This document shows, one piece after another, positions 31,202 to 32,436 of a stretch of 64,000 nt of DNA. Source of the stretch: Dehalococcoidales bacterium (lineage in GTDB: Bacteria > Chloroflexota > Dehalococcoidia > Dehalococcoidales > Fen-1064); NCBI GenBank assembly GCA_020342155.1, contig CP070842.1, positions 1,368,405 to 1,432,404 on the forward strand, read 5' to 3'. Positions within the stretch are counted from its first letter, which is position 1, and every line of letters starts with the position of its first letter. Below the pieces are notes generated by a model. The model did not search any database. It was not told the DNA's origin and saw nothing but the letters and a program-made list of their open reading frames with translations. Both the position numbers and the translations under genes were made by a program.

Positions 31202-31615
31202 ATGGGTTCTATTAAATTAATTCCAGAGGAAGAGGCAACTGGAAGAGTTAAGGAGATATTCGAGGAAATAAAGGAAAAGCTCGGAATAGACTTCGTGCCG
31301 AACCTGTACCGGGCGATGGCGCCCATCCCGGAGTATCTTGAGACACAATGGAACAAGACTAAAGCAATCATGCAAAGACCGGGTAAACTTGATAAGCTAA
31401 CCAGGGAAATCATCGCCGTGGCTGTATCCACGGTAAACGGATGCAGGTATTGAACCGAGGTCCACACTTCCGCGGCGCGGAAGCTCGGTCTTGATGATGA
31501 GGGTATAACCGAACTAATGACAGTCGTTGATCTGTTCAGTGGCCTTAACAAGTTCTCAGACGGTCTTCAGCTTGAAATGGATGAGAAGCCTTGGTACGGT
31601 TGTGGTTCAGCCTGA
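31202..31615 (+). CDS. Carboxymuconolactone decarboxylase/AhpD-family protein, candidate selenoprotein (in-frame TGA)
   Basis: Read through the TGA at 31451-31453, this is a 137-residue CMD/AhpD-family protein. The family's redox motif CxxCxxxH appears as C81-R-Y-[TGA84]-T-E-V-H88, so the TGA replaces the second catalytic Cys. The frame after it remains intact and family-like (SAARKLGLDDEGI, LFSGLNKFSDGLQLEMDEKP) to a TGA at 31613. A stem-loop starts immediately after the codon (see SECIS entry). AhpD-like selenoproteins are known. The alternative is a single nonsense mutation or sequencing error. The enzyme would reduce peroxides or disulfides. Start ATG 31202; GTG 31196 is possible. Confidence 0.72.
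31454..31489 (+). promoter_or_regulatory. Candidate bacterial SECIS stem-loop
   Basis: Directly 3' of the in-frame TGA, ACCGAG (31454-31459) pairs with CTCGGT (31484-31489) and, inside it, TTCCGC (31468-31473) pairs with GCGGAA (31477-31482) around a GGC loop. The apical loop begins 21 bases after the TGA and its first base is G, consistent with the distance and loop rules I recall for bacterial SECIS elements. An internal loop (GTCCACAC) separates the stems. Confidence 0.55.
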
Positions 31616-31739
31616 ATGCCGTGAGCATTCAGTTGCACTGAAAATCAACAGCGCCCAACAATGCGATATGTGCATTTGATCTAAAGAGAAGTACTTAAAA
31701 CGTGACAATCAGGTTGAACAATGAAAAAGAGGAGCAAAG

Positions 31740-31875
31740 ATGAGAGTAGAAGATCTATCAACTTACGGAACAACTTTTGACTATATGCCGCGGAAAGCAA
31801 TGATAGAACAAATGAAAGTAATGTTTTCCGAACTTACAAGAAAGTTTGGATTATTTGGCACCGTTGGATTTCGTA
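31740..31875 (+). pseudogene. Truncated gene start, cut by the recombinase segment
   Basis: A ribosome site (AGGAGCAAAG) and ATG open a frame that looks coding for about 44 residues (MRVEDLSTYGTTFDYMPRKA, then MIEQMKVMFSELTRKFGLFG). After residue 44 the frame is only the antisense of the serine recombinase gene and has no coding character. The rest of the original gene is not found on the far side. I do not recognise the family. Boundary near 31875 is estimated; a hairpin CCACGGG-ACCTG-CCCGTGG lies at 31882-31900. Confidence 0.45.
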
Positions 31876-31926
31876 GATACCCACGGGACCTGCCCGTGGC
31901 ACTTGTTAAAAACCAACGATTTATAG

Positions 31927-32436
31927 TTAAGGGAATCTTGTTCTTTTCTTCCTTTTTCTCTTATCTTTTGAACCAGATGGCCTGCCTAGCCTCCTACCCT
32001 GAGCTACGGCCCGGGCTAATCCTGCCTTCGTTCGCTCCGATCTCCGCTGACTTTCCATCCGTGCTACCCAACCCGAAAGAGCATAGAGCACCTCAGCCAG
32101 TTCTCCAGGGGCCTCGGTCCACGATTCCTGGTAACTGAGAACGCGTACACCGTATATCCTCAGCTTATCAACCAACTTCAATATGGCTAGAGCACCTTCC
32201 CTTGATAACCTATCGAGGCTCCAAACCAGCACGGCATCAAATTTGTGGCGTCGAGCGTCTGCTACCAACTTCGCCAGCTCTTTTTGGTGGCCAGCTTTCC
32301 AAGCTGATTCACGTTCACTGTATATCCCGACAACCTGAAAGCCACACTGCTTTGCCCAATCCTCCAGTACTATAGATTGATTGGTAGTGTTCTGGTCGTC
32401 GGTACTAACTCGAACATAAATAACAACCCGCATCAA
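31927..32436 (-). CDS. Serine recombinase (resolvase family), small
   Basis: A 169-residue serine recombinase. The nucleophile is S11 in YVRVSTDDQ; catalytic arginines lie in the VWSLDRLSREG stretch and the E helix follows. After residue 145 the protein has only GRRLGRPSGSKDKRKRKKR, a basic stub where resolvases have the HTH_7 DNA-binding domain, so it may be truncated or belong to a short group common in uncultured Chloroflexota. The start is probably TTG 32436 or ATG 32433. It may have inserted next to the truncated gene at 31740; no terminal inverted repeats are obvious. Confidence 0.83.
   Translation of the reverse strand: MMRVVIYVRVSTDDQNTTNQSIVLEDWAKQCGFQVVGIYSERESAWKAGHQKELAKLVADARRHKFDAVLVWSLDRLSREGALAILKLVDKLRIYGVRVLSYQESWTEAPGELAEVLYALSGWVARMESQRRSERTKAGLARAVAQGRRLGRPSGSKDKRKRKKRTRFP

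Follow-up and report, generated by a model that had tools for sequence, protein, structure and literature searches.

The gene at positions 31202–31615 (plus strand) of the window, the whole 64,000-nucleotide stretch of DNA analyzed here, is very probably a selenoprotein gene, with hairpin-directed insertion of selenocysteine (Sec) at UGA codon 84 as the best explanation of its sequence. Its relatives in about six phyla appear likely to form a double-Sec AhpD-like family that has not been described before, in which an active-site CxxU motif is combined with a second Sec on a flexible C-terminal arm, the latter served by a SECIS past the stop codon. Within this family the window gene would represent a natural Sec-to-Cys replacement with an orphan SECIS. 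Because the other family members are 60–75% identical to it, the window gene is, as judged from sequence comparison, a Sec/Cys member by ancestry rather than a double-Sec gene itself: the double-Sec arrangement comprises UGA at both the CxxU and the WYGU positions and a SECIS beyond the stop, and the window gene has TGT at the second of these codons.

The probable selenocysteine codon 84 and its hairpin

The short, peroxidase-like gene comprises 137 codons and the stop codon TGA at 31613–31615, and it is intact apart from an in-frame TGA. Translation with that TGA read through yields a product without frameshift (MGSIKLIP...NGC81RYU84TEVH88...KPWYGC134GSA-stop), in agreement with the initial annotation, which had described a frame that is open and family-like on both sides of the TGA and carries no other lesion. 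The same annotation had placed the TGA (31451–31453, plus strand) on the second redox Cys, codon 84, and its coordinates within 31202–31615 are exact. Translation and alignment delineate the redox motif C81-R-Y-U84-T-E-V-H88 (CxxUxxxH; 31442–31465, plus strand), in which C81, position 84, and H88 are each at least 90% conserved in a 25-row alignment. Assignment to the AhpD/CMD superfamily follows from the Pfam CMD profile (PF02627; 64.9 bits, cut-off 23), the predicted helical fold, and the CxxUxxxH motif. The AhpD core domain is the only NCBIfam model above its cut-off for the window protein; neither the peroxidase-related subfamily TIGR01926 (77.5 bits for the window protein and 69.3 for L011, cut-off 81.8) nor AhpD proper (TIGR00777; 31.9 bits, cut-off 191.95) is reached. 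In a fold model with a mean pLDDT of 92, the last block of residues falls to 66, which suggests a flexible C-terminal tail.

Homologues were gathered by one scan of genome contigs and by searches of about 1,700 genomes, resulting in 20 distinct members including that of the window. Codon 84 is TGA in 18 of the 20 (window counted) and TGC in two Chloroflexota members, so that every aligned homologue has TGA or Cys at this position; a search for further frameshifts among them yielded none. When the window gene is compared with the 17 other Sec-containing members, pS amounts to 0.66–1.0 (0.7–1.0 downstream of the TGA), near saturation, and pN downstream of the TGA to 0.09–0.16, not above the upstream value. 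By these measures of few protein-changing differences, the part downstream of the TGA is translated under purifying selection.

A hairpin that follows the TGA, referred to here as SECIS 1, has as its core a 7-bp stem (CTTCCGC/GCGGAAG; 31467–31483, plus strand) closed by the apical loop GGC at 31474–31476. Published limits for bacterial SECIS elements are a loop of 3–9 nt, a stem of 4–16 bp, a G in the first two loop positions, a spacing of 16–37 nt, and a minimum free energy of −7.5 kcal/mol or lower (PMC13188914); SECIS 1, with its GGC loop, 7 bp, a spacing of 20 nt, and −17.1 kcal/mol, falls within them. Codons +5 to +10 after the TGA have a synonymous identity of 0.88, compared to a mean of 0.44 elsewhere, the top value of 114 six-codon windows. 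The upper stem (31467–31473 with 31477–31483) is paired in 95% of the alignment cells and shows compensatory change in two pairs. The loop is GGC in the window gene and GGU in the other 17, still within the published G[G/U] rule. On this comparative evidence, the SECIS 1 hairpin is conserved as RNA. The initial annotation had proposed a larger, two-part stem-loop at 31454–31489 (plus strand), with a G-starting apical loop that begins 21 nt after the codon. The loop is as described, and so is the predicted fold, the region 31448–31500 folding at −18.7 kcal/mol (z −1.9); conservation, however, is confined to the upper stem. Across the family, only 52% of cells are paired in the lower stem (ACCGAG/CTCGGT; 31454–31459 with 31484–31489), which was therefore rejected as part of the conserved SECIS and looks like an extension specific to the window gene.

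The window corresponds to positions 1368405–1432404 of a 2.3 Mb single-scaffold genome that is 93.9% complete and, judging by its relatives and gene content, probably comes from an uncultured member of the class Dehalococcoidia (Chloroflexota). A search of this genome found selA, selB, selC, and selD all present. The selB match scores 358 bits (cut-off 242), and selC is a tRNA-Sec with the anticodon TCA. Adjoining these two genes in one cluster are selA, a UGA-containing selD, and a UGA-containing fdhA, which were assigned by reading the open reading frames beside selB and selC, without a profile. Sixteen nucleotides after the selD UGA lies a 7-bp hairpin with the loop CGGGA. Genome-wide reassignment of TGA was considered and is unsupported, as the long genes in the window lack in-frame TGA codons.

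These data also bear on the possibility of a decaying pseudogene or a sequencing error, that is, a change of TGC to TGA in one strain or assembly that truncates the protein. The genome is a gapped scaffold assembled from metagenomic data, with runs of N near a partial second copy of the gene, which speaks for such an explanation. The same TGA, however, is shared by 17 further genes in several phyla, and this rules out a base-call error as a general explanation; together with the purifying selection downstream of the TGA and the full Sec machinery in the genome, it leaves truncation or error with a negligible probability. The CxxU selenoprotein predicted by the initial annotation is thus sustained by the conservation of the TGA, the selection acting beyond it, the conserved hairpin, and the presence of the Sec machinery.

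A second UGA codon and a hairpin beyond the stop

While the initial annotation recognized the first Sec, it missed a second, C-terminal Sec codon in the family and a SECIS-like hairpin beyond the stop. In the tail motif WYGCG of the window protein, Cys134 is encoded by TGT (31601–31603, plus strand); the corresponding codon is TGA in 17 of the 20 members (WYG-U-G-stop) and never TAA or TAG. Gly comes next in 15 of these 17 genes, and a stop codon follows exactly two codons on in 14. For independent genes, the chance of this last pattern would be about 1e-16; the counts overstate independence, as about nine of the 17 two-UGA genes belong to one Zixibacteria clade. Members with Cys at the tail position have Cys-Gly there, and the window gene is the sole Sec/Cys member found among the 20. 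Five members (L014, L015, L017, L020, and L065) carry UGA-GGN-UGA, in which a predicted Sec UGA and a terminating UGA are one codon apart.

In the two-UGA genes, a hairpin of the form GAAUGC-CGUGN-GCAUUC, or a variant of it, is located 16–21 nt beyond the second UGA, past the stop codon. Across 19 aligned sequences, 97% of cells are paired, three pairs show two-sided changes, and the loop CGU is invariant (19/19). The window gene retains this SECIS 2-like hairpin (TGAATGC-CGTGA-GCATTCA; 31613–31631, plus strand), which runs from the stop codon into the 3' untranslated region. With the loop CGUGA, 7 bp, a spacing of 16 nt, and −10.9 kcal/mol, it lies within the bSECIS limits, and its pattern matches once in the 64 kb window, compared to 0.01 matches expected by chance. 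The hairpin is perfect in the window gene and equally in L010, the partial second copy that this assembly contains. Of the two Cys/Cys members, L019 has lost one pair and L042 has lost the hairpin. Since it is intact in the window gene despite the TGT codon, a recent Sec-to-Cys change is suggested, the gene tree being too poorly resolved to date it.

It could be argued that only the first Sec is real and that the second UGA is an ordinary stop codon, with which the protein ends at WYG; the stop of the window gene would then have mutated to TGT, adding a four-residue tail. The second UGA indeed lies near the protein end, stop codons follow soon after it, and published listings give known AhpD-like selenoproteins a single Sec (PMC13188914). 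Ordinary stops would hardly be expected to be UGA in 17 of 17 genes, to precede Gly and a further stop at such regular distances, to align with Cys-Gly in the Cys-containing members, and to have, 16–21 nt further on, a covarying hairpin in keeping with the bacterial SECIS model, and this account is accordingly very improbable. A different objection concerns the hairpin at 31613–31631, which might have another role (in processing, in mRNA stability, or as the mark of a mobile element) and be kept in Cys members for that reason. It is intact in the window gene with its Cys134, nearly intact in the Cys/Cys member L019, and intact again in L019 behind a fragment of another gene copy. Nevertheless, where a second UGA is present, the hairpin agrees with the SECIS model in spacing, stem, and loop, its layout is that found after the selD UGA in the same genome (16 nt, 7 bp, CGGGA loop), it is lost in the Cys/Cys member L042, and no T-run follows it, unlike in a terminator; another role is therefore considered unlikely. 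On the preferred reading, in which the hairpin is a second SECIS that has outlived its Sec codon, graded decay following Sec-to-Cys replacement is the simplest interpretation of its states in the Cys members. The window gene would then capture an intermediate stage of Sec loss, the codon having apparently changed before the RNA signal.

The fragment in L019 (3860–4080) is C-terminal (AWFGCGGH-stop), is followed by an intact GAATGCCGTGAGCATTC hairpin, and looks like part of a second AhpD-like copy. A dispersed repeat was also considered for the hairpin and rejected: the window holds no second site, and outside the gene's own 3' end the hairpin was found only after this fragment.

Distribution and genomic context

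The members come from Gemmatimonadota, KSB1, Krumholzibacteriia, Zixibacteria, Deltaproteobacteria, and Chloroflexi. SelB was detected in 13 of 16 genomes tested, among them the genome of the window and nine of the 10 tested that carry a two-UGA gene; no match was obtained for the KSB1 metagenome-assembled genome G452 or for G459 and G351. G452 has a two-UGA gene but no SelB match, which may reflect genome incompleteness. G459 and G351 share the same Cys/Cys gene and have no SelB match; the other Cys/Cys genome, G224, has one. The family is sporadic in its distribution, and as two same-genus genomes contain SelB and lack the AhpD-like gene, the pattern points to horizontal transfer or repeated loss. 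No relative of the gene was found in IMG/VR. Two Zixibacteria genomes each hold two two-UGA paralogues (G457, L017/L070 and L065; G460, L020/L064 and L071).

No gene neighborhood is shared across the phyla. The sole recurrent neighbor is a 167–180 aa protein (MPF..K...VLIVPCRFCPA) without a Pfam or NCBIfam match, found about 0.5 kb from the gene in eight loci from the Zixibacteria search (L014, L015, L016, L017, L020, L067, L068, and L069), on the upstream or the downstream side depending on the genome. Two loci (L013 and L019) have a gene that reads as arsM at a distance of up to about 2.2 kb, too few to support a link. In the window, a mobile insertion just downstream of the AhpD-like gene may be marked by a serine recombinase gene (PF00239; 31927–32436, minus strand), into which a short open reading frame lacking a Pfam match extends (31740–32436 in all).

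A second copy, about 98% identical and extending from inside the gene through the hypA–ftsH neighborhood (window 31473 onward), is present at G000:C1:1965769 onward (L010 7774–11155). It is bounded by runs of N, confirms the TGT codon and the second hairpin, and stops short of the TGA; it is probably not a true duplication but a strain-variant contig that was misplaced in the scaffold.

Proposed mechanism and comparison with known systems

A simple model would describe the product as a small thiol/selenol peroxidase-like protein with the AhpD/CMD fold. The hairpin at 31467–31483 would recruit SelB with Sec-tRNA(Sec), leading to the insertion of Sec at UGA codon 84; in most relatives, a second Sec near the flexible C-terminus would be decoded by the second SECIS beyond the stop codon. 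By analogy with the fold family, U84, which occupies the site of the AhpD peroxidatic Cys, would react with a hydroperoxide and C81 would resolve it as a selenenylsulphide, so that the overall activity would be hydroperoxide reduction with a thiol donor, as in the AhpD peroxidases. The tail residue Cys134, Sec in the relatives, may act as an electron relay linking the core to a thiol reductant, similarly to the C-terminal arm of thioredoxin reductase.

Knowledge of AhpD-like and CMD-like CxxU selenoproteins goes back to the Sargasso Sea and Global Ocean Sampling surveys (PMC1088965, PMC2398784), and one Sec is given for them in an inventory from 2026 that covers 119 prokaryotic selenoprotein families and subfamilies (PMC13188914); these sources bear out the initial annotation, which had stated that such proteins exist and that the SECIS sits just 3' of the UGA. 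The known proteins (TIGR01926, PF02627, COG2128) share with the window protein the AhpD core, Sec as the second residue of the CxxU pair, and a SECIS just after the UGA; in contrast, a C-terminal WYG-U-G with a SECIS beyond the stop goes unmentioned for them, and a search of the open-access literature yielded no description of a second, C-terminal Sec in an AhpD-like family. Standard annotation ends the family proteins at Tyr83, or at WYG if the first Sec is recognized, and both redox centers can therefore be lost; the single-Sec entries already listed might be the same proteins annotated short. More generally, the family points to a selenium-based redox defence common to unrelated, mostly uncultured bacteria, and the five genes with predicted Sec-Gly-stop provide a natural setting in which to ask how short a distance between a Sec UGA and a stop UGA a single SECIS allows.

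Three NCBIfam families, NF041238 (AhpD_rel_CFYUT), NF041047 (GSU3128 family), and NF041537 (ArsM/AhpD), likewise have CxxU in an AhpD core domain, but the window protein scores far below their cut-offs (34.5 versus 175, 24.4 versus 110, and 24.2 versus 510 bits, respectively). The best PDB relative both by sequence (36% identity) and by predicted fold (TM 0.86) is 2ouw, the Cys form of an AhpD core protein from Rhodospirillum rubrum. It has the same length and fold as the window protein, yet it carries CxxC without Sec, and its aligned part stops short of the WYGCG tail.

Mammalian thioredoxin reductase ends in a C-terminal Gly-Cys-Sec-Gly arm, and the UXX-star and KCU-star proteins are bacterial proteins with C-terminal Sec arms. 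Both bacterial groups are listed in the inventory (PMC13188914). In the arm of thioredoxin reductase, Sec stands next to Gly on a flexible tail, as in the two-UGA relatives of the window gene. Thioredoxin reductase, UXX-star, and KCU-star have an unrelated fold and are alike in layout only, and at the place of their Sec the window gene has Cys.
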